Shown here: piece after piece, positions 33,272 through 60,370 of the stretch
Layout: the number at the start of each line of letters is the position of its first letter
Position numbering within the stretch: the first letter of the stretch is position 1
Program-made: the position numbers and the translations under genes
The notes under the pieces: generated by a model
Told to the model about the DNA's origin: nothing
What the model saw: only the letters and a program-made list of their open reading frames with translations
Databases searched by the model: none
DNA from: Phyllobacterium sp. T1293
Lineage (GTDB): Bacteria > Pseudomonadota > Alphaproteobacteria > Rhizobiales > Rhizobiaceae
Assembly: GCF_020731415.2 (NCBI RefSeq)
Contig: NZ_CP088274.1
Location: 1-64,000 of the forward strand
Length of the DNA: 64,000 nt
Direction of reading: 5' to 3'

Positions 33272-34210
33272 ATGGATAGCCTACTCGCCGCTCATGACTA
33301 CAACCAGCTTCGCGCTTTTATTGCCGTTGCTGAATTTCTGAGTTTTACCCGAGCTGCCGATAGCCTCGGCGTTTCCCCTTCAGCTTTAAGCCAGATGGTA
33401 CGAAGTTTAGAGGAACGACTGGAGATGCGCCTTCTCCACCGGACGACACGAAATGTGTCACTGACAGAGGCCGGTGAAAATTTGCTTCAGCGGGTGAAGC
33501 CTGCGGCATTCGAACTCGGAAGTGCTGTCGCACAGGCCCGCCGCTCAGGAGAAAATCCTGCTGGAACAGTAAAGGTACATTCGTTTCGATCTGCAGCCCG
33601 AAAGCATATCGAACCCATTCTTGCCAGCTTCACCGAACGCTATCCCGAGGTGCTACTCGATATCACGCTTGATGACGAAGTTATTGATATCGTTGCAGGA
33701 GGCTTCGATGTCGGCCTGCGCATAGGGGAAGTGATCGAGCGCGACATGATTGCCGTTCGTCTGGGATCAGAACTCCGGCAGGTTGTTGTGGCGACACCTG
33801 ATTACCTCGCCCGTCATGGATATCCGGAGCACCCACGAGACCTCGTTCGTCATCGTTGCATACGCTGGCGCTGGCCGGGCCGGGCGACGCCCTACGCTTG
33901 GGAATTCTTCGAGAATGAAACCTGGTTCAGTGTCTCTGTCGAAGGTCCGTTGATTTTCAGTGACAAGGAAATGGCACTGACAGCAACGCTCAAAGGCATC
34001 GGGATCGGATTTCCAATCGAAGACACGGTTGAAGACCATATCGCCGAAGGAAGGCTCATCAGCCTTCTCGATCCGTGGTGCGCTCTGTTTCCAGGACTGT
34101 TTTTATGCTATCCCAAGCAGCGCCATATGGCACCAGCCCTGCGGGCTTTCATCGATGCCCTGCGAGCCGGGCAGCAGAAAACAGGCGACATGCATGCCTA
34201 TCAAATTTGA
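33272..34210 (+). CDS. LysR-family transcriptional regulator
   Basis: About 312 residues of the LysR family with the N-terminus NQLRAFIAVAEFLSFTRAAD, recognition helix LGVSPSALSQMVRSLEERL and LLHRTTRNVSLTEAGE. This is the common group beside SDR and aldo-keto reductase genes. AAGG lies eight bases before the ATG at 33272. It is divergent from the SDR gene and probably represses it until an aldehyde or ketone is present. Confidence 0.88.
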   Translation: MDSLLAAHDYNQLRAFIAVAEFLSFTRAADSLGVSPSALSQMVRSLEERLEMRLLHRTTRNVSLTEAGENLLQRVKPAAFELGSAVAQARRSGENPAGTVKVHSFRSAARKHIEPILASFTERYPEVLLDITLDDEVIDIVAGGFDVGLRIGEVIERDMIAVRLGSELRQVVVATPDYLARHGYPEHPRDLVRHRCIRWRWPGRATPYAWEFFENETWFSVSVEGPLIFSDKEMALTATLKGIGIGFPIEDTVEDHIAEGRLISLLDPWCALFPGLFLCYPKQRHMAPALRAFIDALRAGQQKTGDMHAYQI

Positions 34211-34273
34211 AGCCTATGGCTGTCGACCGACCGGTTTACTCCAGGCTAAGATTTCTTTGGGCACACGTTTAAT

Positions 34274-34468
34274 TCAATCGCGCACAAGACATGCCATAGG
34301 ATCGAGGCTCGAAGCTTTGCGTGCCGGAACAACGCCAAAGAAAATACCGATGACCCTGGATCAGACAAGAGCCGCGATGATTGAAGCCGGGGAATAGATC
34401 AACTCAAATGGTGTGCTGAACTGACAGAACAGCCAGCCAAACCCCAATGCGACAGCAATTCCACCGCA
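34274..34468 (-). pseudogene. C-terminal remnant of a MacB-type ABC transporter permease
   Basis: The minus strand reads GGIAVALGFGWLFCQFSTP then FELIYSPASIIAALV, a TGA stop (34361-34363), and SRVIGIFFGVVPARKASSLD followed by PMACLVRD and stop. FFGVVPARKASSLDPMACL matches the end of MacB/FtsX permeases (FGxxPARKAAxLDPIEAL), and TPFELIYSPASIIAA matches the last extracellular loop and membrane segment. The first part of the gene is absent; the weak AVAREIGWRG reading near 34560 may be a further trace. The fragment is out of context beside the thiolase operon and marks a deletion or insertion junction. Confidence 0.7.
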
Positions 34469-34593
34469 CCAACTGCTGCAGGCTGCCCATGGCATGACCA
34501 GCAATCAATGTCGAAGAGTCCATGCTCGTGCGCCATTAGCCACGCCACCCAATCTCACGCGCAACCGCAGTTAACAGCCGATCACTTATTTTC

Positions 34594-34607
34594 TTGACAG
34601 TTGTCAA
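34594..34607. promoter_or_regulatory. Shared dyad A upstream of the thiolase gene
   Basis: TTGACAGTTGTCAA is a perfect TTGACA-N2-TGTCAA dyad. TTGACA could also be the -35 box, with AATCAT 17 bp later as a weak -10. Two nearly identical copies occur in the cluster, before the SDR and TetR genes. Confidence 0.7.
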
Positions 34608-34684
34608 AATTAATTAAATCATTTGTCATAGAATTTCAAAGATTATGTGTTTCGACGCACACTTCGAAGATGGAGGCGGGTGAG

Positions 34685-35866
34685 ATGTCACGGCAGGTTG
34701 TCGTTGCCGGAGTCGGCACAGTTCCCTTTTCAAAGCCAACAGCCGGACGGACCTATGTCCAGATGGGAACAGAAGCGATCCGCTTGAGCCTTGCCGACGC
34801 TGGCCTTGAATACAGGCACATCCGGCAAGTATACGCCGGGTATGTTTATGGAGATAGTTGTAGCGGGCAACGCGTAGCCTATGAAAGCGGAATGACCGGT
34901 ATTCCGGTGATCAATGTGAACAACAATTGCGCAACCGGGTCCACTGCGCTTTTTCTGGCGCGGCAAGCCGTCGCGAGTGGCGCCGTTAACTGCGCTCTTG
35001 CGGTCGGATTCGAACAGATGACGGCCGGCGCACTTCACAATGTCTTCGATGATCGCCCCGGCCCGCTCGACAGGTTTGAACAGGAAACCAATGCGTTGAT
35101 TGGTGATATTGGTTTGCCCCCTGCTCTGCGCTATTTCGGCGGTGCCGGTCTTGCTCACATGCAGCAATACGGCACGAAACTCTCCACCTTTGCCAAGATC
35201 CGTGCGAAGGCGAGCCGTCACGCGGTAAACAACCCGCATGCCCTGTTTCGCACCGAATTATCCGAGGATGAAGTCCTGGCATCACCGGTGTTGTGGGAAG
35301 GTGTCATGACACGTCTGATGGCATGCCCGCCTACCTGCGGAGCAGCTGCCGCCATCATTTGCTCGCGCGATTTTGCAAACCGTCATGGTTTGAGCAAACC
35401 CGTGCGTATCAGAGCGCAATCGATGATGACCGATACTCCATCCAGCTTACACGCCCATGATATGCGTAAGGTCGTTGGCTTCAACCTCACATCAAATGCT
35501 TCGGAAGCTGCGTACGACGAAGCCGGTATTGGCCCGGAAGATATGAATGTGGTCGAACTCCACGATTGTTTCGCTCACAATGAACTGATCAGCTATGAGG
35601 CCCTTGGGCTTTGTGCGGAGGGTGCATCAGAAGCATTCGTGGTGGATGGTCGCAATACCTATGGCGGCGATATCGTCACCAACCCTTCCGGTGGACTTTT
35701 GTCAAAGGGACATCCACTCGGGGCAACAGGCATCGCCCAATGTGCAGAACTTGTGCAGCAGTTGCGTGGTCAATCCGGGCATGGGCAGGTGGATGGAGCA
35801 CGACTGGCCTTGCAGCATAATCTTGGTCTTGGAGGAGCCTGTGTTGTCACGATCTACGGCGACTGA
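34685..35866 (+). CDS. SCP2-type thiolase / lipid-transfer acetyltransferase
   Basis: About 393 residues. Nucleophilic Cys82 is in VINVNNNCATGSTALFL; the C-terminal active site has NVVELHDCFAHNELISYE and PSGGLLSKGHPLGATGIAQC, with the second His. The pattern is that of SCPx-like (non-classical) thiolases, which cleave or condense 3-ketoacyl-CoAs of long, branched or sterol-like chains. GGAGG lies eight bases before the ATG at 34685. It is the first gene of the cluster and has a TetR-type dyad in front. The substrate is unknown; release of acetyl- or propionyl-CoA is the family norm. Confidence 0.87.
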   Translation: MSRQVVVAGVGTVPFSKPTAGRTYVQMGTEAIRLSLADAGLEYRHIRQVYAGYVYGDSCSGQRVAYESGMTGIPVINVNNNCATGSTALFLARQAVASGAVNCALAVGFEQMTAGALHNVFDDRPGPLDRFEQETNALIGDIGLPPALRYFGGAGLAHMQQYGTKLSTFAKIRAKASRHAVNNPHALFRTELSEDEVLASPVLWEGVMTRLMACPPTCGAAAAIICSRDFANRHGLSKPVRIRAQSMMTDTPSSLHAHDMRKVVGFNLTSNASEAAYDEAGIGPEDMNVVELHDCFAHNELISYEALGLCAEGASEAFVVDGRNTYGGDIVTNPSGGLLSKGHPLGATGIAQCAELVQQLRGQSGHGQVDGARLALQHNLGLGGACVVTIYGD

Positions 35867-36030
35867 GGCAACGACCGCTGCGTTTGAAAGCGCCTGAAAA
35901 TGTGTGGAGACCAAAGAGTACATTCGAACTAAGCATATGATTTTACAAGATATAAATTGCGAACGCTTCGATGCGTATGCGTCGGATTTTTAAGTCCAAT
36001 TGCCTAGCAGTACAATCGACAAATAAAATC

Positions 36031-36044
36031 TTGACATTTGTCAT
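36031..36044. promoter_or_regulatory. Shared dyad B upstream of the SDR-reductase-ligase unit
   Basis: TTGACATTTGTCAT matches dyad A at 12 of 14 positions and lies 90 bp before the SDR start, in a 267-bp gap. I see no convincing -10 box at the right spacing from its TTGACA. Confidence 0.6.
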
Positions 36045-36133
36045 AAAATAAACGGAACTAAGTTATCCCCGCCACAAGGGGCAAGAGCCGGGCACGAGGA
36101 ATGCACCAGCTCACAAATCAGGAGGAGACGTGC

Positions 36134-36940
36134 ATGGTTGACAAATTGAATTTGGCTGGCCGCAAGGCGCTCGTAACTGGTGGTGCCCGTTCTATCGGCG
36201 CCAATATCGCAGCCGCGCTTACCGCCGCCGGTGCATCTGTCGTCATTGGCGACATTCTCGATGATCTCGGACGCGAAACCGCTGCCAATCTGGCAGCGCC
36301 CGGCATAAAGACCGGCTTTGTACATCTTGACGTAGCCGACGACGCACAATGGGCTAATGCGATACCGAGCGTCATCCAGCAGATCGGCGGCTTTGATATT
36401 CTTATCAATAACGCCGGTATAGAAGTGACCGCATTGGTTGCTGATATCGACGCTGCCAGTTTGCGCCGCATGCTCGATGTGAATGTCCTCGGTACAGCAT
36501 TGGGCATGAAGCACGCGTTCCTTGCAATGCGGCCCGGCGGCCCGGCTGGTGCCGGGGGTGCTGTGGTCAATATTTCCTCAGTGGCTGCCACCATCGCTTT
36601 TCCGGCGATTGCCGGATACTCCGCCAGTAAATCCGCCGTAGATCGCATGACGCGTGTTGCCGCCGTTGAGGCCGGAAAGCTTGGTTACGGCATTCGCGTT
36701 AATTGTATTTTCCCAGGTCTGATTGCCAATGAAATGGGCATAAAGCTTGCCGAAGATATTGTTGCCTTTGGTTTGGCCCCCGATGTGGCAACCGCTGTTG
36801 CCGGTGTTATCGGGCAAACGCCAATGGGCCGCCTTGCAGAGATGCCTGAGGTCGCAGATGCGGCTGTGTTTCTCTGCTCTGACGCCGCCAAATTTGTCAC
36901 TGGTATTGGCCTGCCAGTAGATGGCGGCATGGGAACTTAA
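36134..36940 (+). CDS. Short-chain dehydrogenase/reductase (3-hydroxyacyl-CoA dehydrogenase-like)
   Basis: A 268-residue SDR: KALVTGGARSIGANIAAAL (TGxxxGxG), DILINNAGIEVTALV, catalytic VNISSVAATIAFPAIAGYSA with Tyr and SKSAVDRM (YxxxK). The C-terminus VTGIGLPVDGGMGT is FabG-like. AGGAGG lies eight bases before the ATG at 36134. In this cluster it probably oxidises or reduces a 3-hydroxyacyl-CoA, either in breakdown by the thiolase or in making monomers for the PHA synthase. Direction cannot be told. Confidence 0.85.
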   Translation: MVDKLNLAGRKALVTGGARSIGANIAAALTAAGASVVIGDILDDLGRETAANLAAPGIKTGFVHLDVADDAQWANAIPSVIQQIGGFDILINNAGIEVTALVADIDAASLRRMLDVNVLGTALGMKHAFLAMRPGGPAGAGGAVVNISSVAATIAFPAIAGYSASKSAVDRMTRVAAVEAGKLGYGIRVNCIFPGLIANEMGIKLAEDIVAFGLAPDVATAVAGVIGQTPMGRLAEMPEVADAAVFLCSDAAKFVTGIGLPVDGGMGT

Positions 36941-37050
36941 ACAGCCAAACGGATGATCTGCTTGATGGCAACGATGCCCGATGCTGACCACCCAAATCAC
37001 AGCAATTGATTTCATCAACCGCATACCCAAAACAGGGGAGGATTATTGAA

Positions 37051-38172
37051 GTGTCCGACAAGAGACCCGTTATTGTCTATGGCGTATCCGGCTACACCGG
37101 TCGTCTGGTTTGCGAATATCTGCGCGAATACAATATCCCTTTTATTGCCGCAGGCCGCGATAAGAAAAAGGTGCAGGATGTCGTGGATAAGATTCCAGGC
37201 ATTGAAACTGCCGACTACGAAGTCGTCGCTGTAGAACACAATGTTGAGGCGCTCACCAAGCTGTTCAGGGGCGCAAAAGTCGTCTCCAACATGGTCGGCC
37301 CCTTCATCAAATTTGGCCCTGAAGTCGTCGAAGCCTGCCTGGCGGCAGGTTGTCACTACACCGACACAACCGGCGAACAGGACTGGGTTTTGATGGCGCA
37401 GGACCGCTGGGGCGATGCCTTTGCGAAAAAGGGCCTGCTTCTGTCGCCCAACCTTGCGCAAATGTACACAACAGGCGAAATCGCCGCCAATATTTGTCTC
37501 GAAACGCCTGGACTGGACACCTTGGATATCCAGGTATTCTGGAAAGGTTTTCCGACCTATGCCTCGACACAGACAATTTTTACGATCCTCAAAGCGAGCT
37601 GGTATTATCTGGAACAGAACAAATATGTCGAATGGGACGTTACGGCCCGAGCCGACGTCGCCGTCCCCGGACAGCACGAAACTGCTATCGCCGTTCCCTG
37701 GGGTGGAACTGCCCATCCAGTCTGGTTCAAGAATGACCCACGTGTTGCCAATGTCCGCGTTCTTGGAGGCGTTCTTGCAAGACCTGTTATGGAGGGAGTG
37801 GTCGCCACCACGCAAATGGTCAAAGAGAAAATCAAACCACTCCCTCCAGAAGAGCAGGAGAAGGCTCTTGGCGAAATTGCTGCGTCATTGCAGGCGGCAA
37901 TGCCACCACGAGAAAACCCTCGCATCAACACAACTGTAGACTCGGTTCATGCATCAGGCCCGTTGAGCCGTGCCCACTGCGTGATCCATGGCAATTGCAA
38001 CTATAAACAGACGGGAGTGCTGCAGGCATATGCTGCTTATTCCCTGTTGCAGACAGCACCGAGAAAGGTTGGCTTCGCTTCGGGCTGTCAGGCTTTCGGT
38101 TATCGGGAGCTTCTAGGTCAGCTCCGCAGTTTCGGCCTTGTCGCGAAACCAATTGTAACTGTCCACGACTGA
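37051..38172 (+). CDS. Saccharopine-dehydrogenase-like NAD(P)-binding protein
   Basis: About 373 residues. The N-terminal Rossmann motif is VIVYGVSGYTGRLVCEYL (residues about 7-24), followed by AGCHYTDTTGEQDWV near residue 110, a hallmark of the saccharopine reductase/trans-acting enoyl reductase superfamily. The start is a GTG at 37051, with GGGGAGG about ten bases before. No saccharopine pathway is nearby; neighbours are an SDR and an acyl-CoA ligase. A C=C or carbonyl reduction on an acyl substrate is the best guess. I do not know the substrate. Confidence 0.75.
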   Translation: MSDKRPVIVYGVSGYTGRLVCEYLREYNIPFIAAGRDKKKVQDVVDKIPGIETADYEVVAVEHNVEALTKLFRGAKVVSNMVGPFIKFGPEVVEACLAAGCHYTDTTGEQDWVLMAQDRWGDAFAKKGLLLSPNLAQMYTTGEIAANICLETPGLDTLDIQVFWKGFPTYASTQTIFTILKASWYYLEQNKYVEWDVTARADVAVPGQHETAIAVPWGGTAHPVWFKNDPRVANVRVLGGVLARPVMEGVVATTQMVKEKIKPLPPEEQEKALGEIAASLQAAMPPRENPRINTTVDSVHASGPLSRAHCVIHGNCNYKQTGVLQAYAAYSLLQTAPRKVGFASGCQAFGYRELLGQLRSFGLVAKPIVTVHD

Positions 38173-38216
38173 CGCCCGATCAAGTCAGAGATCAAGGCAA
38201 GTCGCAAAACCACCTT

Positions 38217-38237
38217 CAGCGGGGCGCACCCCCGCTG
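38217..38237. other. Hairpin between reductase-like and acyl-CoA ligase genes
   Basis: CAGCGGGG (38217-38224) and CCCCGCTG (38230-38237) form a perfect 8-bp GC stem with a 5-base loop in the 140-bp gap. No T tract follows, so it may attenuate or stabilise rather than end the transcript. Confidence 0.5.
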
Positions 38238-38312
38238 GAAACGAAGAGCTGTATCCATACCCTGAAAACCACCACGTCGGAAACGTCGCCAAGCGACTTG
38301 AGGAAATCCATC

Positions 38313-40349
38313 ATGGTTAGCGAAGGACAATTACTATGGGAGCCGCGCGCAGAATTCGCTGCTGATGCCAATATTACGCATTTCATGAAATGGCTGGCAG
38401 AGACACGCGGCGTCAATGTCGATGATTATGAGGCCTTGCGCCAATGGTCCGTCACTGACATTGAGGCATTCTGGGCCTCCATATGGGACTACTTCGCGGT
38501 GGAGTCCTCGGCACCGTACAAGCAGGTTCTCGATCACAGGGCAATGCCCGGCGCCAAATGGTTTGAAGGCTCACGCGTAAACTATGCGGAACACCTGCTG
38601 CGGTATGAACGGCGCGCCAAGCCATCGGACGTTGCTTTCCATCATTTGACTGAAACGCGCCCCCTTCAGACGCTGGGTTGGCATGAACTTGCAGGGAAAG
38701 TGCGCATCCTCGCAACGCAATTGCGGGCTTTCGGCATCAAACCCGGCGATCGTGTCGTCTCGTACATGCCCAATGTTCCAGAGACCGCAATTGCAATGAT
38801 TGCAACGATTGCCATTGGCGCCGTCTGGTCATCCGCAGCACCCGAATTCGGTGTGAAAACCGTGATAGAGCGTTTCGCTCAAATCGAGCCCAAACTGTTA
38901 TTTGCGGCTGACGGCTACCGCTTCGCTGGCAAGGATTTTTCCCGAGAAAATGAAGTCGGCGCCATATGTGAGGCTCTACCAACCCTCGATCACGTCGTCT
39001 GGCTTCCTTATCTTCATGAAGAAGCCGCCACGCCGGACATGAACAAGCTTGTCACATGGCCCGCCTTGATGACCCATCCCGTTGTGACACAGGAGCAGTT
39101 CAAGTTTGAACGTGTCGAACATGATCATCCGATATGGATACTGTTTTCCTCCGGCACAACAGGTCTGCCCAAGGCAATTGTTCATAGCCACGTCGGTGTC
39201 TTGCTTGAACATCTGAAGCTGATGCATTTCCACCTTGGCCTGCGCCCGGGTTCCAACATGTTCTTCTACAGTACGACCGGTTGGATGATGTTCAATCTTC
39301 TGGTGGCGGCACTGCTGACTGGCTCATCCGCTGTTCTTTATGACGGGAACCCCGCCTACCCCACACAGGATCTCCTTTGGAAACTTGCTGCCGATACCGG
39401 CGCCACGATGTTCGGTGCCAGCCCGACATTTGTTCAGATGATGGAAAAAGCCGGATTGAAGCCCGGACAACAGTTCGACTTGTCCCGTCTCGAATGCGTG
39501 ATGGCAGCGGGCGCGCCTTCAACACCCGAAACTTTCGATTGGTTCTATCACAGCGTGAAAACAGACCTGTGGGTTACTTCACAATCGGGCGGAACTGAAA
39601 TTTGCAGTGGTTTTGTTGGAGCAGTACCCGTGCTGCCTGTGTATGCGGGGGAAATCCAGACCCGCATGCTTGGCATGGACGTGCATTCCTGGAGCGATGG
39701 CGGCGAAGAACTGGTTGACGAAGTTGGAGAACTTGTCGTCACCAATCCGTTCCCCTCGATGCCAATCAAATTCTGGAATGATACTGATGGAAAGCGCTAC
39801 CATGAGTCATATTTTGACACCTTCCCCGGTGTGTGGCGGCATGGCGATTTCATCAAGATCAACAAGCGCGGCGGCTGCTATATCTACGGACGTTCGGACT
39901 CCACCCTGAACCGCTTTGGCGTGCGGATCGGTACCGCAGAAATCTATCGGGCGGTAGAACAGGAACCGGAGATTGCCGACAGCCTTATCGTCTGCTGCGA
40001 ACTGCCGGGCGGTGCATTCTTCATGCCACTGTTCCTGCACCTGAAAGCCGGATTCGCACTCACGGATGAGGTTATAGGCCGCATCAACAGAAGGTTGCGG
40101 CAGGATTGTAGCCCACGTCACGTACCAGACCGCATCTACGCGGTTGAAGCCATTCCCTACACGCTGACGGGCAAGAAGATGGAAGTACCGGTTCGCAAGA
40201 TTCTGATGGGGTGGCCGATGGAAAAAGCTGCCAGCCGCGATGCTATGTCGAACCCCGAAGCGATCGACTACTTCGTCAAGTTCGCCGCCGACTCCACTGA
40301 CTACCAATGGCGCACTGCCGAACAGCTGCTGAAGGGGGCCAGCATATGA
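38313..40349 (+). CDS. Acetoacetyl-CoA synthetase-like acyl-CoA ligase
   Basis: A 678-residue adenylating enzyme of the acetoacetate-CoA ligase size class. P-loop-like A3 motif: WILFSSGTTGLPKAIVHSH; A8 motif: YGRSDSTLNRFGVRIGTAEIY (hinge); catalytic Lys in PYTLTGKKMEVPVRK. It activates a carboxylate (acetoacetate or another beta-keto or short acid) with ATP and CoA. GAGGAAA precedes the ATG at 38313. Its last codons overlap the PHA synthase gene by four bases, so it may supply acyl-CoA to the synthase. The exact acid is not determined from sequence. Confidence 0.88.
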   Translation: MVSEGQLLWEPRAEFAADANITHFMKWLAETRGVNVDDYEALRQWSVTDIEAFWASIWDYFAVESSAPYKQVLDHRAMPGAKWFEGSRVNYAEHLLRYERRAKPSDVAFHHLTETRPLQTLGWHELAGKVRILATQLRAFGIKPGDRVVSYMPNVPETAIAMIATIAIGAVWSSAAPEFGVKTVIERFAQIEPKLLFAADGYRFAGKDFSRENEVGAICEALPTLDHVVWLPYLHEEAATPDMNKLVTWPALMTHPVVTQEQFKFERVEHDHPIWILFSSGTTGLPKAIVHSHVGVLLEHLKLMHFHLGLRPGSNMFFYSTTGWMMFNLLVAALLTGSSAVLYDGNPAYPTQDLLWKLAADTGATMFGASPTFVQMMEKAGLKPGQQFDLSRLECVMAAGAPSTPETFDWFYHSVKTDLWVTSQSGGTEICSGFVGAVPVLPVYAGEIQTRMLGMDVHSWSDGGEELVDEVGELVVTNPFPSMPIKFWNDTDGKRYHESYFDTFPGVWRHGDFIKINKRGGCYIYGRSDSTLNRFGVRIGTAEIYRAVEQEPEIADSLIVCCELPGGAFFMPLFLHLKAGFALTDEVIGRINRRLRQDCSPRHVPDRIYAVEAIPYTLTGKKMEVPVRKILMGWPMEKAASRDAMSNPEAIDYFVKFAADSTDYQWRTAEQLLKGASI

Positions 40350-42127
40350 CAACCGGGGCTAGAACCACAGCAAATCGTCTCAACCGCAAGGCAGGAAAAT
40401 CAGACCGGGCACCCCAAGGTGGTGCGGAGACAACAGCACATACCAAAAGCAGTGACGACCGTTCTGCCGAAAATGTGCAGGGTCAGAACAGCATGGGGGA
40501 TTTTCGCCCATCTGATCTTCTCGCCACGGCGGGCGTTCTGGCGAAACAGGCAATGAAACGGCCTTTTGCCCTTGCCAAAGCAGGGCTGGGCTTTTGGGGT
40601 GACATTGCGAAAATGGTGGCAGGTCAATCGCGGTTGACACCGGAAGCCGGAGACAGACGCTTCAACGATCCCGCATGGGAAGCCAATCCACTTTATTCAA
40701 GCATGCTTCAGGGCTATCTCGCCCTGCGCAAATCGATGATGCACTACGCCAAAACATCGGGACTGAATGCGCGTGAAGTTGAACGCGCGCAATTTCTGCT
40801 CTCTCAAGTTGGTGATGCCATTGCCCCCAGCAATTTTCTCCTCGGCAACCCGGCTGCCCTTCGCAAAGCCAAGGAAACCAAGGGACTGAGCCTGCTGCAT
40901 GGTGCGCGCAATCTCGTCGACGACGTTTTAAGTCAGCGCCCGATACCGTCCCAGGTTGATGAAAAGGCCTTTACTGTCGGCAAGAATCTGGCTGTCACCC
41001 CCGGTGCGGTTGTCTTGCGTACTGAAATGTTTGAGCTGATCCAATACGCGCCGCAAACCGCAAATGTGCGTGAGCGTCCAATGCTTGTGGTGCCGTCAAT
41101 CGTCAACAAGTTCTATGTGTTTGATCTCGCTCCTGATCGCAGCGTGCTGGAATATTTCATCCAGCGGGAAATCCCGGTCTTCGTCATGGTGTGGCGTAAT
41201 CCACAACCCCGGCACGACAGGTGGGGTATGGCGGATTATCAGGACGCCATCGATGCTGCCATTGATGCAACATGCTCCATCGCGAAGTCACCTGATGTCA
41301 ATCTTTGGGCAGTGTGCGGTGCGGGACCGGCGGCCGTGTCCTTGGCGGGATATTATGCTGCCGTTAAAACACGCAAGATCAACAGCCTGCTTCTCGTGGT
41401 GTCACCTCTCGATACCAAAGCAATGTCCGACGCACCGGGTGTCGGCGCCTTTGCCGACGCAGGAGACAACAATCTGGCGGTCGCCAAGAAAAGCACCCGC
41501 AACAGGCGAATAAGCGCAAGGGAATTTACCCTGCTCTTTGCCATGCTTCGTTCGAATGAGATGATCTGGAACTACTGGGTAAACAACTATCTTTTGGGCA
41601 ACAAGCCGTCTGCTTTCGATGTTCTCTATTGGAACGGTGACGGCACCGGAATGACAGCGCAGTTCAATCAGGATTTCAGTGCTTTCATTGAAGCAAATCC
41701 GTTTGTAACGCCGGGCAAGATGAAGGTGCGCGGCAAGCCAATTGCCGATCTATCCGAACTTGATATCGACAGCTATGTGCTTGGGGCTGCCAACGATCAT
41801 CTTTGCCTCTGGCAAGGGGTCTATCGCAGCGCCCAGCTTTTCGGTAATCGCAGTCAGTTTGTACTTGGAAACAGCGGCCACATCCAGACGATCGTGTGCC
41901 CACCCGGCAATCCGAAGTCGAGCTTTTCAACCAACGACGAACTGCCAGCCACCGCTGAAGAGTGGCTGAAGACCTCAACACGCCATGAGGGCAGTTGGTG
42001 GGATCATGGCGTGGCGTGGACCACCCAACGTTCGGGAGAGTTAGTCGTGGCTCCCGAGACACTCGGCAATGAAGATCATCCTGTCCTTTGCGCTGCGCCG
42101 GGGACCTATGTTCATGAGCGCGTATAG
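40346..42127 (+). CDS. phaC: Polyhydroxyalkanoate synthase, class II (Pseudomonas medium-chain) type, altered lipase box
   Basis: 593 residues. The order RRFNDPAWEANPLYSSMLQGYLA, VTPGAVVLRTEMFELIQY, VPSIVNKFYVFDLAPDRS, IWNYWVNNYLLGN, SGHIQTIVCPPGNPK and the terminal APGTYVHERV follows Pseudomonas PhaC1/PhaC2 closely. The triad is Cys324, Asp484 (in GAANDHLCLW) and His512 (in GNSGHIQ); the 28-residue Asp-His spacing equals that of C. necator PhaC. The lipase box GxCxG reads AVCGAG here, so the Gly two before Cys is Ala. The N-terminus has a basic, low-complexity extension of about 50 residues. It starts in an ATGA overlap with the ligase gene and is followed by a depolymerase. Product inferred: PHA of medium chain. 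Confidence 0.88.
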   Translation: MTTGARTTANRLNRKAGKSDRAPQGGAETTAHTKSSDDRSAENVQGQNSMGDFRPSDLLATAGVLAKQAMKRPFALAKAGLGFWGDIAKMVAGQSRLTPEAGDRRFNDPAWEANPLYSSMLQGYLALRKSMMHYAKTSGLNAREVERAQFLLSQVGDAIAPSNFLLGNPAALRKAKETKGLSLLHGARNLVDDVLSQRPIPSQVDEKAFTVGKNLAVTPGAVVLRTEMFELIQYAPQTANVRERPMLVVPSIVNKFYVFDLAPDRSVLEYFIQREIPVFVMVWRNPQPRHDRWGMADYQDAIDAAIDATCSIAKSPDVNLWAVCGAGPAAVSLAGYYAAVKTRKINSLLLVVSPLDTKAMSDAPGVGAFADAGDNNLAVAKKSTRNRRISAREFTLLFAMLRSNEMIWNYWVNNYLLGNKPSAFDVLYWNGDGTGMTAQFNQDFSAFIEANPFVTPGKMKVRGKPIADLSELDIDSYVLGAANDHLCLWQGVYRSAQLFGNRSQFVLGNSGHIQTIVCPPGNPKSSFSTNDELPATAEEWLKTSTRHEGSWWDHGVAWTTQRSGELVVAPETLGNEDHPVLCAAPGTYVHERV

Positions 42128-42136
42128 GGAAATCAG

Positions 42137-42997
42137 ATGAAGCAGGCAACCGCGACACTGGTTCGAAATCTCTCCAGCCGCAAAATGGAAATCAGCCAGA
42201 TTGTTCTTTATGGCATGACGTTGCGCGTGGCTGTCTGGCCCGGAACAGATAAAAAAACACCGCTACTGATGTTCAATGGCATCGGTGCGAGCCTTGAGCT
42301 TCTGGCGCCATTCGCCGATGCGATGGGCGACGTCGAAATGATTGCATTCGACGTGCCGGGCACGGGCGAATCCTCCACATCACGTATCCCCTACCGTCTC
42401 TGGATGTTGTCGATGCTGGCATCCAGGCTTTTGGACAAACTCGGTTACGGCGATGTCAACGTACTTGGTGTCTCATGGGGCGGAGCAGTGGCACAACAAT
42501 TTGCTCTTCAGAACCCCAAACGGTGCCGTCGCCTTGTGCTGGCTGCAACGTCACACGGACTACTGATGATCCCGGGAAAGTTGTCCGTTCTGGCAAAATT
42601 CCTGACACCTCGCCGTTTCAACGATGCCGGTTATCGCAATGATATTGCCGGTGACATTTACGGCGGAAAGGCGCGGCTGCACCCTGGATTGATCAACGAA
42701 TTTCGCAAGACGAGCAAACTTGGTTACCTGATGCAGCAGTTTGCACTTCTCGGCTGGACCAGCCTGCCTTGGTTACCACTTCTGCGGCAGCCAACCTTGA
42801 TCCTTGCGGGTGATGACGACCCCGTCATCCCTCTCGTTAATGCCCGAGTGATGACGCAATTGATACCGGACAGCCGGCTCCACGTATTCAACGACGGCCA
42901 TCTGTTTCTGGTGTCTGCGGCCGAAGAAGCCGGCCGTATCGTTCGTGATTTCCTTAACCCTGCGGATGGAACCCAAGATGAAGAAACTGGACGGTAA
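42137..42997 (+). CDS. phaZ: Intracellular PHA depolymerase (PhaZ, medium-chain type)
   Basis: A 286-residue alpha/beta hydrolase that tracks Pseudomonas PhaZ: LLMFNGIGASLELLAPFADA, MIAFDVPGTGESST, VLGVSWGGAVAQQFAL (nucleophile Ser), RLVLAATSHGLLMIPGK, LAGDDDPVIPLVNAR and the catalytic His in FNDGHLFLV. It hydrolyses stored PHA to 3-hydroxy acids on the granule surface. It follows phaC by nine bases with AGGGA before its ATG. In Pseudomonas the order is phaC1-phaZ-phaC2-phaD; here one synthase and a nearby TetR gene recall that layout. Confidence 0.87.
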   Translation: MKQATATLVRNLSSRKMEISQIVLYGMTLRVAVWPGTDKKTPLLMFNGIGASLELLAPFADAMGDVEMIAFDVPGTGESSTSRIPYRLWMLSMLASRLLDKLGYGDVNVLGVSWGGAVAQQFALQNPKRCRRLVLAATSHGLLMIPGKLSVLAKFLTPRRFNDAGYRNDIAGDIYGGKARLHPGLINEFRKTSKLGYLMQQFALLGWTSLPWLPLLRQPTLILAGDDDPVIPLVNARVMTQLIPDSRLHVFNDGHLFLVSAAEEAGRIVRDFLNPADGTQDEETGR

Positions 42998-43802
42998 GGT
43001 TGCATTGATTTCCGGCTCCGGCCGCGGGATTGGTCGTGAGATTGCGGTTAAGCTGGCAAGGGATGGCGCACTGATCGTTGTCAATGATCTCGATGCGGCA
43101 CTTGCCGACGAAACAATTGCCGCAGTTCGCAATGCGGGTTCAGATGCCACCGCCTGCGTTGGCAGTGTTACCGATCCTGATTTTGCCGGGCGCTTTGTGA
43201 ACACCGGGATAGAGGCGTTTGGCGGTATCGACATCATCATCAACAACGCCGGATATACGTGGGACAATGTCATTCAGAACATGACTGACGAACAGTGGTA
43301 CGCAATGATCGACGTGCATATGACTGCACCATTTCGAATACTGCGTGCGGCCGCGGATTTCATCAGAAAGGCCGCCAGACAGGAAGCGGATGAAGGTCGC
43401 GAGGTCTTTCGCAAGGTCGTCAATATTTCATCGCTTGCAGGCGTTGGCGGCAACGCCGGACAGCTCGGATATGGCGCTGCCAAATCCGGTGTGAATGGTA
43501 TGACGCGGGTTATGGCCAAGGAATGGGGACGCTTCAAGGTCAATGTAAACAGCGTGGCATTCGGCTTGATCCGCACACGTCTTACCGAGGCCGCAGCTGG
43601 AACAGGTGCCATTCAAGTCGAGGGCCGGGAAATCAAGGTGGGCGTCAATCCGGATGTGATGAAAACAATGGAGAGTGGAATTCCGCTTGGACGCGGCGGT
43701 ACTCCCGAAGAAGCTGCAGGTGCAATCTATCTCTTGTGCATCCCGGAATCGAACTACATCAGCGGCCAGGTACTTGTGTGCAGTGGCGGCTTTATGTTCT
43801 AG
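42978..43802 (+). CDS. Short-chain dehydrogenase/reductase, second of the PHA cluster
   Basis: About 274 residues. VALISGSGRGIGREIAVKLA (TGxxxGxG-type), DIIINNAGYTWDNVIQNMTD, catalytic VVNISSLAGVGGNAGQLGYG with AAKSGVNGM (YxxxK), and PESNYISGQVLVCSGGF at the C-terminus. This resembles the hydroxyacyl-CoA dehydrogenase/FabG-type SDRs. The coding region begins inside phaZ by 20 bp; ATG 42978 is chosen, and 42969 is an alternative. In this context it may interconvert 3-ketoacyl-CoA and 3-hydroxyacyl-CoA, as PhaB does, but it is not a clear PhaB. Confidence 0.83.
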   Translation: MKKLDGKVALISGSGRGIGREIAVKLARDGALIVVNDLDAALADETIAAVRNAGSDATACVGSVTDPDFAGRFVNTGIEAFGGIDIIINNAGYTWDNVIQNMTDEQWYAMIDVHMTAPFRILRAAADFIRKAARQEADEGREVFRKVVNISSLAGVGGNAGQLGYGAAKSGVNGMTRVMAKEWGRFKVNVNSVAFGLIRTRLTEAAAGTGAIQVEGREIKVGVNPDVMKTMESGIPLGRGGTPEEAAGAIYLLCIPESNYISGQVLVCSGGFMF

Positions 43803-43834
43803 GTTGCATTTTATGACAATAGTATAATAATTTC

Positions 43835-43848
43835 TTGACAGTTGTTAA
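43835..43848. promoter_or_regulatory. Shared dyad C and promoter of the TetR gene
   Basis: TTGACAGTTGTTAA differs from dyad A by one base. TTGACA as -35 and TACAGT (43857-43862) as -10, 16 bp apart, form a good promoter, so the repressor would cover its own -35. Confidence 0.7.
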
Positions 43849-43949
43849 GTTTTCTCTACAGTTATTTCAGGTTGATGGATTGGGTGGGTCCGTCGTAGTT
43901 TACGATCTTTCTCACTCCCCTTTAACCTGAGATGCACTGAGAGGACGAA

Positions 43950-44597
43950 ATGAAGGAGCAAACAGCTGGTACGATGGAACCGGCAAGCAAGGTGATGGTT
44001 CGCAGGCGGAGGTCTGAAGTGGACAAGTTCGAAGTCCGCCGTTCTGAACTGGCGGAAGCTGCATTGGAAACGCTTGCCGAGCTTGGTTATGCGCGAACCA
44101 GTCTGCGGGAAATTGCGCAGAACTCTGATTTTACCCATGGGGTGATGCACTATTACTTCACGGATAAATTCGATCTGATTTGCTGCAGTGTTCAGCATTA
44201 CAAATCGAAATGCATCACACGCTATGATCAGGTTACGGATACGGCAACTACCCGTGAGGAGCTATTGAAAGGTTTCCTGGATAAACTCGGTGAAACGCTG
44301 GAAATAGAGCCACATCTGCATCGCCTCTGGTACGATTTGCGTGCTCAGGCACTTTTCGAGACGGCCTTCCGTGATGATGTCATCGCAATTGACCAAAGTC
44401 TTGAAGATATGATGTGGCGTATCGTTTCCAGATATGCCGAGCTTGGCGGCACGCAGCCGACTGTTTCGTCAAGCGCTGTCTATGCATTGGTTGATGGGTT
44501 GTTTCAAAAGTACCTGCTGAAACATCTATCGGGAGACAAGAATGCCATTCGCGATTTGCAGGAGAACGCGAGACAACTCCTGCCGGCAATCGTTTGA
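43950..44597 (+). CDS. TetR-family regulator of the PHA/thiolase cluster
   Basis: A 215-residue TetR protein. The N-terminal HTH is RRSELAEAALETLAELGYAR, then TSLREIAQNSDFTHGVMHYYFTDK; the C-terminal helices bind the ligand. GAGGA lies five bases before the ATG. Dyad C covers the -35 box of its promoter, and copies precede the thiolase and first SDR, so it probably represses itself and both units. The ligand may be an acyl-CoA or the compound entering through the downstream porin. It is reminiscent in context of PhaD of Pseudomonas, but not shown to be orthologous. Confidence 0.85.
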   Translation: MKEQTAGTMEPASKVMVRRRRSEVDKFEVRRSELAEAALETLAELGYARTSLREIAQNSDFTHGVMHYYFTDKFDLICCSVQHYKSKCITRYDQVTDTATTREELLKGFLDKLGETLEIEPHLHRLWYDLRAQALFETAFRDDVIAIDQSLEDMMWRIVSRYAELGGTQPTVSSSAVYALVDGLFQKYLLKHLSGDKNAIRDLQENARQLLPAIV

Positions 44598-44773
44598 GAG
44601 TTTGAGATACATCTCGCAAGATTCGTGACAACCGCTGACGTTTGCGGTGAGGCTTGAAGCCTGGGAGGGCTTTTCCAAGCAAGCATAGACTTACGGTTTT
44701 TTCAGCGTGGCTTCGGCTGCGAACGGGAGAGCTTTGCCTAAATGCATCTGATCTTATCAAAGGGGAGATTGAT

Positions 44774-45664
44774 ATGGTGAATATCAGGGGACTGGGCCTT
44801 GTGCTCGCAATGGCAGCTAGTTTTGCGGCGCCGAGTGCGTCCTATGCCATTGACATTATGCCGGGTGACTACGTCCCGTTGCCCAAAGGAACCAATCTTG
44901 GGTTGCTTTATCTACAGTATCAAACGAATAAAAACCTGAATATCGATCTTAACGGTGTCGGCGATGTACCGAAGTCCTCATATGATCTTCCGCTGTCACT
45001 CTTACGCTACTTGCACTACAGCGAAATCGGCGGCGTCCCCGTGGCATTTCAAGGTTATTTGCCCATTGGCAGCTTCACGGAAAACCGCATTGGTGGCGTT
45101 GACCAACGGACAAAAGATGGCATTGGCGATCTGACGCTTGGGGCCACCGTTTTTCCACTCACAGGTGCCGATAAGCCGGGTGGAACAACAGTTGGCATCA
45201 CCGCATATGTGACATTGCCAACGGGAAGTTACGATTCAAAGGTGCCGTTCAATATTGGCAACGGCACGACGACCTTCACACCCCAGCTTGGCATCATTCA
45301 GAATCTCGGGCACGGATTTTCCATTGATGCTGCCGCGGATGTGGCTATTTATCTCAACCACGACGAGGACGGAGCAAAATTCTCGCAAGATCCGTCCGTG
45401 CAGTTGCAGGCCTATTTGAGATATAATTTTTCCGCTGCAACGGCGGTATCATTTGGCTATTCCGGCAAATTTGGCGGGAAGCAGTATGTCGAAGACATCT
45501 ATAATGGCCAAAAAACGGATTCTCACGGCCTTCGCGCGTTTGCCAGCACTTTCATCACACCAACTGTACAAGTTCAAGCGATGGTTGGAACGGACCTGTC
45601 CTCCGCAGACGGTGGGTTCAAACAAGATTTCATCGGCACGCTTCGGCTGCTAAAAGTCTTCTAG
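44774..45664 (+). CDS. Outer-membrane MetA-type (phenol degradation family) channel
   Basis: About 296 residues: signal peptide MVNIRGLGLVLAMAASFAAP..ASYA, then beta strands with DIMPGDYVPLPKGTNLGLLYLQY, GVPVAFQGYLPIG, GDLTLGATVFPL, GITAYVTLPTGSYD and a terminal strand FIGTLRLLKVF ending in Phe. This is the MetA-pathway outer-membrane family (COG4313), whose members help hydrophobic substrates cross the outer membrane. GGGGAGA precedes the ATG. It follows TetR by 176 bp, a gap holding only a short AGGCTT-N-AAGCCT repeat. It suggests that the cluster uses a hydrophobic growth substrate. Confidence 0.83.
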   Translation: MVNIRGLGLVLAMAASFAAPSASYAIDIMPGDYVPLPKGTNLGLLYLQYQTNKNLNIDLNGVGDVPKSSYDLPLSLLRYLHYSEIGGVPVAFQGYLPIGSFTENRIGGVDQRTKDGIGDLTLGATVFPLTGADKPGGTTVGITAYVTLPTGSYDSKVPFNIGNGTTTFTPQLGIIQNLGHGFSIDAAADVAIYLNHDEDGAKFSQDPSVQLQAYLRYNFSAATAVSFGYSGKFGGKQYVEDIYNGQKTDSHGLRAFASTFITPTVQVQAMVGTDLSSADGGFKQDFIGTLRLLKVF

Positions 45665-45681
45665 ACCAACGCTTTAAACAG

Positions 45682-45715
45682 GAGGCTATATTGTCATGAA
45701 CGACAATATAGCCTC
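45682..45715. terminator. Strong bidirectional hairpin after the MetA-type gene
   Basis: GAGGCTATATTGTC (45682-45695) is perfectly matched by GACAATATAGCCTC (45702-45715), a 14-bp stem with a 6-base loop, 17 bp beyond the stop. Confidence 0.7.
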
Positions 45716-45729
45716 GAGATGCTTCATAT

Positions 45730-45755
45730 CCGCCCTGCTCGATGGAACAGGGCGG
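45730..45755. terminator. Second hairpin, serving the convergent autotransporter gene
   Basis: CCGCCCTG (45730-45737) pairs with CAGGGCGG (45748-45755), an 8-bp stem with a 10-base loop, 7 bp past the autotransporter stop. A run of five A follows on the plus strand. Confidence 0.6.
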
Positions 45756-45762
45756 AAAAACT

Positions 45763-48700
45763 TTAGAACTTCACCGTTAGATCTGCTTTGACGGCGTTGT
45801 CATTTGCCTGACTTGAGAACTGACCATTGTAGCTGATACCAATACTCGTAGCCTTGCCGATGGCAACGTCAAAGCCTGCTTCAACCAGCGCCGTATCTTC
45901 GGCAATCGGCAATCCGTCGATGGAGAAGCTAGAACCGCCGGCAAAGGCGAAAGTTGCCGTTGGTGTTGTATCGCCAAAATTATGCCGCCAACCCGCCATG
46001 CCATGGGCAGTGAGTATGGTGGCGTCGCTCAAGCTAAAGTCGCGTGAGACCCTCACACCCAGTGTCGTTGTCGTCAGATCCGTCGTATCGGCCCTGGCCG
46101 ATAGTGCTGTAATACCGCCTGTCTCGGTAAAACCGTCCGTCTTCAAACGCACATAGGCTGCTCCGGCAAAAGGTTCGAAGGCGGCATAGGGCGTGTCGAT
46201 ACGATAACTCGCTTCACCGAACACCTGAACGGATTTGGCACTATAAGATGCATTGTCATCTTCATTGATGGCTGCAAGATGAGCTTTGCGATCCGTGTCG
46301 ATCTCATGATGGGCAAGGCTCGCACCAAGACTTAAGGTCAACGCATCAATCCGCGTGCCACCATAGACGCCAACCTGATAGCTATCGGCAGAAGCATGAC
46401 CTCGATTCGTGTTAAGGGTTGTGCTGCCATAACCAGCCAGAAGGCCAACCCGCCAGCTATCGGCAATTATCCCGTCAAGGCCGGTAACAAAGCCGCCAAT
46501 GTTGCGCGACAGGCCTGCAGCATTGCCGTCACTGTCGCGTTGGCTCCAAGAACCATAGCCTTGTGCCCAGATCGCGGTGGTGCGAGCATCGGCATTGGTG
46601 AGCGCTGCATCACTTGCGCCATCCGTACCATAGGCTAGTACCGGCAAAGTGTTACCGTTTACCTTGTCGCCAAATGCTGTTCTGATCCGGTTGGTTGCCG
46701 CATCACGGACAAACCTGCTGTCATCGGCCAAAACACCCTTCATCGATGCGTGAACCTCACCGGAGAGCGAGTCAAAATCGGCAGCGAGATTGGTAGCAAA
46801 GGTTGCCGTTGCGACCGTATCATAGAGCAAATTGCCCTGCCCAAGCTTCTGGATGGCGGAAGCAACGGACCTCTGATTTTTTGTCCAGACCACACTACTG
46901 AAGGAACGCCCATTGCTTGATAATGACAGCGTGACGTTGTTGGCATCATAAGCCAGCGCACCGCCGATGAAGTAATAATTGGGAATGACAGCGTCGAAAG
47001 CACCACTCAATCCGCCCGCGGCGCTGAGGATCGTATACTTCTTGCCAAGCAACCCCAGCGTTTCAGTTGCCGTGCCATTCTCCGTCCCCACCATGACAAT
47101 ACCGCCCAAGAGACTTGTTGCGCCGTTCACTGCCAGTTTGTCGCCGCGCCCGTCAGGTGCTACCTGGATCGACAGACCACTGCCCTTGTCGAAAGTGGCA
47201 TTGCCATTGACAGTCAACAACCCGATGGAGTTACCAGGTGCAACGACGCCACCTGCATGTGCGATTAACCCGCCAGCGAACCCATTGCCGCCGAGTGTGC
47301 CGCCATCATTGACAATCACCGTTGATGTCAATGAACCGTTCACCGCCAGAAGCCCGCCATTAATCAGCGTATCACCCGTGTAGGTGTTCTGACCGGTCAG
47401 TTCGAGCCTGCCCGCGCCAAGTTTGGTCAGACCGCCCTGATAGAGACGGGAGAGGTAGGCATTGTCGCGGTCTTTGCCGATATCAAAAGCAACCTTGTCT
47501 TCCGGGCTGGCGTTGGCGGGAAGGCCATTTTGCCAACCTTTGGCTGTCTTGGTCTGCTCCCACGCGTCATGCTCGGCATTGTCCTCGACCTGTCGTGCCC
47601 GGATCGCGACATCCGAAATGTCGTTGCTCCAGACATCGCTTACGCCGGTGCCCAGATTTGCCTCAAATCGGCCCAGGAACTGTCCCGGGCCATTCATGGC
47701 TTTCTTGAGATCCAGCTGCCCCCAGCCAAAAACCGCGTCTGGCACGCCCGCTGCGCTCGTGCCTATGTGTTGGGCGGTTGTCAGCAGAACATCCCGCACC
47801 TGCGCGTTGGTCAGATAGGGATAGCGCTCCATCAACACAGCCAAGGACCCGGTGACCATTGGTGCGGCCATGGACGTTCCGCTTAACCGTGCATAACCCG
47901 GCGAATCTCCATCTCCGTCTTGTTCATAGACAGTGCTATAGATCGATGTCCCGGGAGCTGAAATGCAATAGTATTTTGCCATTCCGCAAACACTCGAACT
48001 GGCGGAAAGCTTGGGTGTTGGACTGAAAGCCGACATATTGGCGACTGAAACCCAATAATTTTCAATATCGGGATGAAAATAGGGCAAGGCACCAAGGGAA
48101 TCCGGCTCTGAACCATACTTGTTACCAGCTGATTTCACGAATAATATTCCGGAACGCGCCACACTTGCCGCTGCGTTCATCGTACCGTCATTGGGTGCAG
48201 AACTGAACTGCGCTATTACATCTGCCTTTGTGGCCTTTGGGCCTCTTGAACTTCCCATCGTACCGAGAAAGCCAATTCCCCAACTGTTGTTGATGACACG
48301 AACACCACTTCCGATCAGCGCATTGAAACCGGCTGTATAGGCATTGGCATCATTGCCCGCGATGACACCATCTTCAGGACCGGGATCACTGGTAATGGCG
48401 GCGATCAACTTCGCATCGAATGCAACACCTTGCATGCCCGTCCCATTGCGATTTGCCGCAACAATACCTCCAACATGCGTTCCATGCGTATCAGGGCTCT
48501 TTAACCCGATACCGTTCAGCGGATCATTGCCGTTGAAGGAAAAGGGATCGCCCGCCTTATAGTAGTTTTGATAGGTATAGGCATAGGTGCCTTCAGTGTG
48601 TAATCCGGTGAGTTTGCCGTCTCCAGCAAATTCCGGATGCTTTCCATAAACGCCGGTATCAAAAATTCCGACATTCACGTTTTTGCCGGTAAAGCCCATG

Positions 48701-48957
48701 GCATAGGCATACTCCGCCTTGACGTTACCCAGTCCCGCATTGGCCTTGAATTCGGTATCATTGCGCCAACTCGTGGCGGCAGTTTCCAGATCTGTTGTCT
48801 TGCTTCCATCAGCCTTGAAATATTGTGCCTGTTGCGCGAATGCTGATGCTGAAAACATAACTGCAGAGAACACAACACATCGGTAGAGGCTGTTTTTTAG
48901 GTCCAAATTGCGCGTGATACGGGCAGGCTTTGCCTGCGCGGTGGAGGTTGGATACAT
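45763..48957 (-). CDS. Subtilisin-like serine protease autotransporter
   Basis: About 1064 residues. A long autotransporter-type signal (residues 1-42, MYPTSTAQAKPARITRNLDL... to SAFAQ) precedes an S8 protease domain: Asp100 in VGIFDTGVYG, His158 in DTHGTHVGG and Ser362 in LSGTSMAAP. A passenger-associated repeat region follows (LTKLGAGRLELTGQNTYTGD). The C-terminal about 280 residues are the beta-barrel (TTAIWAQGYGSWSQRDSDG to NAVKADLTVKF, ending in Phe). The protease is exposed on the cell surface or released. AGGGG lies seven bases before the ATG at 48957, so the upstream ATG at 48978 is less likely. A 15-bp direct repeat lies just upstream. Confidence 0.93.
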   Translation of the reverse strand: MYPTSTAQAKPARITRNLDLKNSLYRCVVFSAVMFSASAFAQQAQYFKADGSKTTDLETAATSWRNDTEFKANAGLGNVKAEYAYAMGFTGKNVNVGIFDTGVYGKHPEFAGDGKLTGLHTEGTYAYTYQNYYKAGDPFSFNGNDPLNGIGLKSPDTHGTHVGGIVAANRNGTGMQGVAFDAKLIAAITSDPGPEDGVIAGNDANAYTAGFNALIGSGVRVINNSWGIGFLGTMGSSRGPKATKADVIAQFSSAPNDGTMNAAASVARSGILFVKSAGNKYGSEPDSLGALPYFHPDIENYWVSVANMSAFSPTPKLSASSSVCGMAKYYCISAPGTSIYSTVYEQDGDGDSPGYARLSGTSMAAPMVTGSLAVLMERYPYLTNAQVRDVLLTTAQHIGTSAAGVPDAVFGWGQLDLKKAMNGPGQFLGRFEANLGTGVSDVWSNDISDVAIRARQVEDNAEHDAWEQTKTAKGWQNGLPANASPEDKVAFDIGKDRDNAYLSRLYQGGLTKLGAGRLELTGQNTYTGDTLINGGLLAVNGSLTSTVIVNDGGTLGGNGFAGGLIAHAGGVVAPGNSIGLLTVNGNATFDKGSGLSIQVAPDGRGDKLAVNGATSLLGGIVMVGTENGTATETLGLLGKKYTILSAAGGLSGAFDAVIPNYYFIGGALAYDANNVTLSLSSNGRSFSSVVWTKNQRSVASAIQKLGQGNLLYDTVATATFATNLAADFDSLSGEVHASMKGVLADDSRFVRDAATNRIRTAFGDKVNGNTLPVLAYGTDGASDAALTNADARTTAIWAQGYGSWSQRDSDGNAAGLSRNIGGFVTGLDGIIADSWRVGLLAGYGSTTLNTNRGHASADSYQVGVYGGTRIDALTLSLGASLAHHEIDTDRKAHLAAINEDDNASYSAKSVQVFGEASYRIDTPYAAFEPFAGAAYVRLKTDGFTETGGITALSARADTTDLTTTTLGVRVSRDFSLSDATILTAHGMAGWRHNFGDTTPTATFAFAGGSSFSIDGLPIAEDTALVEAGFDVAIGKATSIGISYNGQFSSQANDNAVKADLTVKF

Positions 48958-55819: not shown

Positions 55820-55901
55820 ATTCCGCAACTTTCTGGTGCCAATTTGAGCTTAGCCATTTTTTCTCGAATGTGAACCCTATCGAGATGCAAAATTTACAAG
55901 G

Positions 55902-56300: not shown

Positions 56301-56332
56301 TCACCAATCCTCCACTTCTTTGCGTATGGTGC

Positions 56333-56360
56333 TTGCACCTCGCTCGAAAGACGATATCAT
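56333..56360 (+). promoter_or_regulatory. Probable promoter of the rightward methanopterin operon
   Basis: TTGCAC (56333-56338) and TATCAT (56355-56360) are spaced by 16 bp, 41 bp before the ATG at 56401. The leftward fhc promoter must lie in the same 100-bp divergent gap but was not identified. Confidence 0.45.
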
Positions 56361-56400
56361 ACTGCAGGGCCCGATTTTCGAGATTGTGTAAATTAAGCAA

Positions 56401-60362: not shown

Positions 60363-60370
60363 AAGACAAA

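Follow-up and report, generated by a model that had tools for sequence, protein, structure and literature searches.

What would an alphaproteobacterium do with a polyhydroxyalkanoate (PHA) synthase and depolymerase that recall those of Pseudomonas, set among genes of coenzyme A (CoA) metabolism? The question is raised by a gene island of Phyllobacterium sp. T1293, found in the 64,000-nucleotide stretch analyzed here (the "window", bases 1–64000 of contig C2, NZ_CP088274.1; the genome spans 5.07 Mb in 4 contigs). Positions 34685–45664 are filled by nine plus-strand genes for an SCP2-type thiolase, two short-chain dehydrogenases (SDR1, SDR2), a DUF5938 protein, an acetoacetate-CoA ligase (AACS), PhaC, PhaZ, a TetR-family regulator and an outer-membrane channel (Table 1). 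An initial annotation of this DNA had named such genes and counted eight; all that it named were present in this interval and on this strand with profile or domain matches, and the count came to nine. Judged by its sequence, the PhaC counts as a PHA synthase that falls outside class II proper, and the island may form an acquired, self-contained PHA cycle (make, mobilize, reactivate) under one TetR regulator, a reading to which we give about an even chance.

Among curated family models, PhaC aligned end to end with class II (TIGR01839; residues 47–605 of a 606-residue frame, profile positions 7–560 of 560), yet its score of 572.7 bits fell short of the 855.4-bit cut-off. The initial statement that PhaC resembles class II end to end is therefore right, while calling it class II would be wrong. 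The class I (TIGR01838, 425.2 bits against 622.65) and class III models (TIGR01836, 91.5 bits against 365.3) were likewise missed, and identity to the sequences above the class II cut-off, which we take to be from Pseudomonas, was 37.8–43.6%. Among 398 genomes of the phylum, 13 passed the class II cut-off, all from one family (taken to be Pseudomonas and kin), and 14 further genomes, all of the window's bacterial class, scored 601–692 bits, with the next match below the window's own at 471.7 bits. Class II-like PhaC is thus not rare in this class, which qualifies the expectation that alphaproteobacteria usually carry class I. The host itself also has a class I PhaC above cut-off, on contig C1.

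Phylogeny placed the window's PhaC in a lineage of its own. A 56-row tree (long branches flagged for L054, L055 and P0119) set it inside an 18-row lineage (support 100/100); class II and class II-like rows formed a clade next to this lineage (99/95), and class I stood apart (100/100). All three lineages persisted in a 47-row tree, built from the 56 rows minus 13 and plus four class III rows as outgroup, with supports of 98/100 for the window's lineage, 99/95 for class II-like and 94/83 for class I and with their branching order not resolved; the class III rows (n = 4) lay far from PhaC in this outgroup-rooted comparison. A grouping with class I, named by the initial annotation as a result that would speak against it, appeared in neither tree. 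These trees cover classes I to III, with class IV, Janthinobacterium PhaC2 and Burkholderia group D sequences outside them, and the window's lineage was drawn from the best 120 of 4532 matches (out of 8000 scored candidates), so that its outer limits are not fixed.

The lineage also carries residue signatures of its own on a PHA-synthase fold with the catalytic Cys, Asp and His kept. Its nucleophile box in the window reads AVCGA, which departs from GxCxG: two residues after the catalytic Cys, Ala stands in the window and in 17/17 lineage rows against Gly in 38/38 reference rows, and two residues before it a residue other than Gly stands in the window and in 16/17 lineage rows against Gly in 35/38 references. 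We toned down an earlier view that this box breaks the PhaC rule, since the looser box (G/S)XCX(G/A)G, which allows Ala at +2 (PMC8686332), differs from AVCGA at the first residue only, and another report describes a Rhodococcus PhaC with Ala at that first place (PMC2667194). At position "484", reported to affect chain length, the window and 17/17 lineage rows have Val, a residue of the class I type, in place of the Leu of class II, although Leu is missing in 2/15 class II-like rows too. Ser at "325" and Gln at "481" are the same as in class II rows.

Around this synthase, whose gene overlaps that of AACS by 4 bp, the island encodes candidates for a depolymerase, a 3-hydroxy acid dehydrogenase, an AACS, a thiolase and a reductase; neither SDR, however, scores above cut-off for a single one of the 25 NCBIfam families ranked highest for it. 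PhaZ bears out its description as an intracellular depolymerase type, AACS is the sole AACS over cut-off in the host genome, the top solved-structure match of the thiolase is an SCP2-thiolase (type-1; 6hsj, 414.8 bits), and the best PDB match of the DUF5938 protein by sequence stood at E 0.014. In the working that we propose, TetR would repress three predicted transcripts (thiolase; SDR1-DUF5938-AACS-PhaC-PhaZ-SDR2; TetR-channel) until a ligand, probably an acyl-CoA, lifts the repression. SDR2 would interconvert 3-ketoacyl-CoA and (R)-3-hydroxyacyl-CoA and PhaC would polymerize the latter; if SDR2 feeds PhaC directly, PhaJ and PhaG would not be needed in the island, and neither family was seen among the nine genes in domain and profile searches. 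On demand, PhaZ would free 3-hydroxy acids, an SDR would oxidize them to 3-oxo acids, AACS would re-activate these with ATP and CoA, and the thiolase would cleave the product to acetyl-CoA and a shorter acyl-CoA. The channel may import the parent substrate, the DUF5938 protein probably acts as an NADP-dependent reductase in the pathway that feeds the cycle, and short or branched monomers are more likely than the medium-chain ones of the Pseudomonas type. Phasins, which the initial annotation had reported missing, were indeed not seen in the cluster, and two phasin genes above cut-off lie on contig C1.

The same predicted reactions (synthase, depolymerase, SDR, acetoacetyl-CoA synthetase) make up the polyhydroxybutyrate cycle of Sinorhizobium meliloti (phbC, phaZ, bdhA, acsA2), in which PhaZ frees 3-hydroxybutyrate, an SDR oxidizes it and AACS re-activates acetoacetate (PMC5596199). 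Unlike in S. meliloti, the island genes stand together, apparently under one TetR, and their PhaC is not class I. With the class II PhaC/PhaZ of Pseudomonas the island shares the catalytic residues, Q481, S325 and an adjacent PhaZ of TIGR02240, and it differs in its separate PhaC lineage, AVCGA, Val at 484, a single phaC and other neighbors. The Cupriavidus pinatubonensis phaC2 cluster (PMC4636328) likewise has a single class II-like phaC, a class I phaC elsewhere and phaZ in the cluster; that PhaC2 made short-chain PHA only, and unlike the island it has a GXCXG box and phaJ, phaP and fadE as neighbors. Burkholderia group D PhaC and Janthinobacterium PhaC2 have been proposed as a further class outside classes I–IV, with group D1 beside phaJ-pta and ackA and a Burkholderia sensu lato box of G-X-C-X-G-G/A (PMC8231600). 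By these published descriptions the window's lineage differs from the Burkholderia group in box and neighbors, and the two could still be the same class.

How far the gene set travels with this PhaC was assessed by searching 84,980 species genomes for matches to two peptides of the lineage, which returned 7 loci (a lower bound), neighbors being counted at an identity of at least 50% within up to 10 kb. PhaZ directly followed PhaC at 7/7 loci and was 61–71% identical in four relatives; SDR2 was present at 4/7 (77–84%), AACS at 3/7, DUF5938 at 3/7 (63–71%), TetR at 2/7 (53–57%) and the channel at 1/7, as a 51% homologue after TetR in Mesorhizobium albiziae. Four loci were richer, those of Rudaea and Stenotrophobium (Gammaproteobacteria), M. 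albiziae and Pseudonocardia (Actinomycetota): the core AACS-PhaC-PhaZ-SDR2-DUF5938 occurs in the two Gammaproteobacteria and the actinomycete, with a shorter version in Mesorhizobium. Within the order of Stenotrophobium, 1/85 genomes gave a lineage-level match, Stenotrophobium itself (1042 bits; next 584.9). The window's AACS is 72–77% identical to the three cluster-linked AACS and 40–46% to three other AACS of the same relatives' genomes (a fourth was left out), which suggests a ligase that probably moves along with the synthase and may act on a substrate of its own, although the cluster-linked group has tree support of 85/92 only. Neither this gene set nor an AVCGA lineage was found in the open-licence PubMed Central literature, where a description could have escaped detection; the same literature returned no papers on DUF5938 or on Phyllobacterium together with polyhydroxyalkanoate and PHA synthase.

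Two features of the gammaproteobacterial loci lie just outside this core. Upstream of the AACS-PhaC cluster of Rudaea are genes of the hydantoinase A and B types (L015 371–4815), whose family also has acetone and acetophenone carboxylases among its members, which hints at a ketone-derived substrate in Rudaea. Both loci also have a DUF3237 gene just before AACS (L015 7382–7843; L018 6502–7041), and none is present among the window's nine island genes.

The case for shared regulation comes from a palindrome, TTGACANNTGTCAA, which was found as a direct repeat without a prior model. Its sites precede thiolase, SDR1 and TetR, at 77, 89 and 101 bp from the respective start codons (picked by eye). 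With at most 1 mismatch allowed, the 64 kb contain 3 sites where 0.28 would be expected (top count in 100 shuffles 4), and all 3 precede island genes; with at most 2 allowed, the count is 5 where 2.84 would be expected, and 16/100 shuffles reached it, so this looser pattern is not significant by itself. In a gap-by-gap test with 2000 shuffles, the three other island gaps had no site. Homologues of TetR (49–61%) were found at four other loci, and the palindrome stands beside three of them, in Variovorax L056 (0/2000 shuffles as good), Tsukamurella L057 (two sites, 5/2000) and Pseudonocardia L017 (two sites, 0/2000). None was found in Rudaea (one gap tested) or Stenotrophobium (two gaps), and no TetR homologue was seen at either locus. 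Palindromes at L073, where the TetR is hardly related (28% over 57 residues), and likewise at L076 were not counted as support. Given the sites before thiolase, SDR1 and TetR and their recurrence by TetR homologues at three loci, the island looks like one TetR regulon.

The island also looks acquired, with a gene set foreign to the genus. No PhaC more than 35% identical to the window's was found in 58 other relatives (19 of the genus), which supports the initial view of a foreign-looking set that joins storage (phaC, phaZ) to CoA metabolism, and DUF5938 exceeded its cut-off in 1/385 genomes of the class, the window's own, with a sub-threshold match containing stops in one other. Congener G015 matches the window on the left as far as 34170 and on the right from 49262 onward; the gap between these flanks measures 1,137 bp there against 15,091 in the window, and none of the nine genes has a match in it at E up to 1; the left-flank match stops at 34170 in congeners G004, G012 and G016 as well. 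With 15 candidates scored per genome in the congener DNA search, the longest match to 34211–45664 in any other genome was 195 bp. We set aside a deletion in the congener as less simple, given a G015 gap with no match to the nine genes, and gain here is the simpler course because the 58 other relatives lack this PhaC. Foreign base composition was dropped as a sign of acquisition, the nine-gene island (53.5% GC) and the rest of the window (53.4%) giving no foreign signal. The 195-bp match lies between a LysR gene and the thiolase (34269–34463; 80% identical to G012 C3:146805–146999) and is a possible insertion trace. The missing segment also holds an S8-peptidase autotransporter on the minus strand (45763–48978), of which diverged copies (64–73% DNA identity over parts) occur elsewhere in the host genome and in congeners.

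Several observations weigh against a self-contained cycle under one regulator. The synteny search that the initial annotation had suggested recovered the five-gene core, but thiolase and SDR1 (at least 50% identical) each occur in 0/7 flanks of the relatives' phaC and may form a separate module with DUF5938; thiolase relatives (58–66%) stand elsewhere in 4 of those 7 genomes. With AACS at three and SDR2 at four of the seven loci, the full cycle is not conserved, and the 40–46% identity to other AACS means that the ligase's substrate may not be acetoacetate. The altered box means that polymerase activity is not to be taken for granted. SDR2 resembles (3R)-hydroxyacyl-CoA dehydrogenase weakly, and we rejected that assignment through the best PDB hit, 2et6: its score is the sum over a chain with two repeats (93.1 and 84.6 bits), while FabG 3ftp scores 143.6 bits. 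On the regulatory side, the best site in Mesorhizobium L016 is weaker (22/2000) and stands before the channel gene, with none before TetR. TTGACA is the −35 consensus too, and two of the three sites (34594 and 43835) were also picked out as promoter-like, in a set of 13 such sites where 8.6 would be expected; the motif may thus combine promoter and operator.

Of three other explanations, a catabolic island with storage second is a real, if minority, contender. SDR1, DUF5938, the ligase and the thiolase would then degrade a branched, cyclic or ketone-type hydrophobic compound, and PhaC/PhaZ would buffer 3-hydroxyacyl-CoA intermediates. A plasmid of Variovorax PBL-E5 carries such a module (DUF5938 - AMP ligase - lipid-transfer thiolase - SDR - TetR) with the same palindrome in front; TetR, SDR1, DUF5938 and thiolase are 60–68% identical there (SDR1 68% to the SDR beside DUF5938), whereas phaC and phaZ are missing and the ligase is another one, with no match to AACS. 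Since this module exists without phaC, the island looks like two modules under one regulator. Partial versions of the module occur on other plasmids. An SDR2 homologue (60–70%) also lies within 1.2 kb of an SCP2-type thiolase at 3/6 thiolase loci from the seven relatives' genomes, and on a Pseudosulfitobacter plasmid (L073 6777–8810) the thiolase and SDR2 homologues (66 and 69%), the latter immediately behind the former, sit in a cluster with an AtuA-family gene, annotated as an acyclic-terpene-utilisation protein, and biotin-carboxylase genes; this pairing, the hydantoinase-type genes of Rudaea and the channel in the island fit catabolism. Against this reading, none of the nine genes has a domain of an oxygenase, an acyl-CoA dehydrogenase or an enoyl-CoA hydratase, and in four relatives PhaC-PhaZ-SDR2 occur without thiolase in their flanks.

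The other two explanations concern the synthase itself. A genuine class II system for medium chains, which the initial annotation favored, would account for class II being the closest curated model and for the shared "325" and "481" residues, and it sits poorly with the missed cut-off, a clade separate from class II and class II-like rows alike, Val at "484", and a single phaC in a nine-gene set where the phaJ and phaG families were not seen; the medium-chain view is weakened, and we consider it improbable. Still less credible is that PhaC works alongside PhaZ as an acyltransferase or thioesterase-like enzyme and not as a polymerase: the departure of the box residues at +2 and −2 from the references speaks for it, while the retained fold and catalytic residues, the adjacent PhaZ at every locus and the two published box variants cited above argue against it. 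The broader proposal of storage plus catabolism stays plausible.

Table 1. The island, its putative operator sites and the segment lacking in a congener (window coordinates; shuffle counts are per gap).
Feature	Position	Strand	Details
Segment missing from congener G015	34171..49261		nine genes and S8 autotransporter inside
Operator-like palindrome TTGACAGTTGTCAA before thiolase	34594..34607		0 mismatches to TTGACANNTGTCAA; equaled in 0/2000 shuffles; left half also reads as −35 hexamer
SCP2-type thiolase	34685..35866	+	"lipid-transfer protein" model NF006102, 630 bits (cut-off 436)
Operator-like palindrome TTGACATTTGTCAT before SDR1	36031..36044		1 mismatch; equaled in 2/2000 shuffles
SDR1, short-chain dehydrogenase	36134..36940	+	PF13561, 178.4 bits
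DUF5938 protein, saccharopine-dehydrogenase-like NADP domain	37051..38172	+	PF19362, 452 bits; PF03435, 44.5 bits
Acetoacetate-CoA ligase (AACS)	38313..40349	+	TIGR01217, 816.9 bits (above cut-off 520.9)
PhaC, PHA synthase of separate lineage	40346..42127	+	Cys324, Asp484, His512 (593-residue numbering)
PhaZ, intracellular PHA depolymerase	42137..42997	+	TIGR02240, 298 bits (above cut-off 250.6)
SDR2, FabG/3-hydroxyacyl dehydrogenase type	42966..43802	+	overlaps phaZ; start picked by eye
Operator-like palindrome TTGACAGTTGTTAA before TetR	43835..43848		1 mismatch; equaled in 1/2000 shuffles; left half also reads as −35 hexamer
TetR-family regulator	43950..44597	+	PF00440, 33.2 bits
Outer-membrane channel, Phenol_MetA_deg family	44774..45664	+	PF13557, 93.6 bits

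Elsewhere in the window, a biotin-synthesis type operon lies on the minus strand (20380–25424; BATS/radical SAM, class I/II and class III aminotransferases, AAA_26 and a KAS III-like gene), whose genes we take to be bioB, bioF, bioA, bioD and bioZ. A C1-type gene cluster (51403–63188) has a 76% DNA match to a Phyllobacterium zundukense plasmid, where the features under the match include formylmethanofuran dehydrogenase and methenyltetrahydromethanopterin cyclohydrolase. When the left part of the window and its right part were compared with plasmid DNA, Phyllobacterium was among the closest in each case, as best or near-best match, in keeping with an alphaproteobacterial host.

Taken further, and only tentatively, the lineage might represent an additional class of single-subunit PHA synthase, marked by AVCGA, that moves across phyla in a TetR-controlled module, together with an AACS, a PhaZ and an SDR of its own, and stores 3-oxo/3-hydroxy acids from an unusual (branched or ketone-derived) substrate as polyester. 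PhaC classes steer the choice of enzymes for bioplastics, and some members of this lineage carry a "class II" label in public records though they lie outside class II and differ in the nucleophile box and in a class I-type residue at a chain-length site, so they may make polymers other than the label promises. A TetR-gated unit that covers both synthesis and reuse would lend itself to transfer between hosts, and the predicted operator would offer a direct route to the inducer and hence to the substrate.

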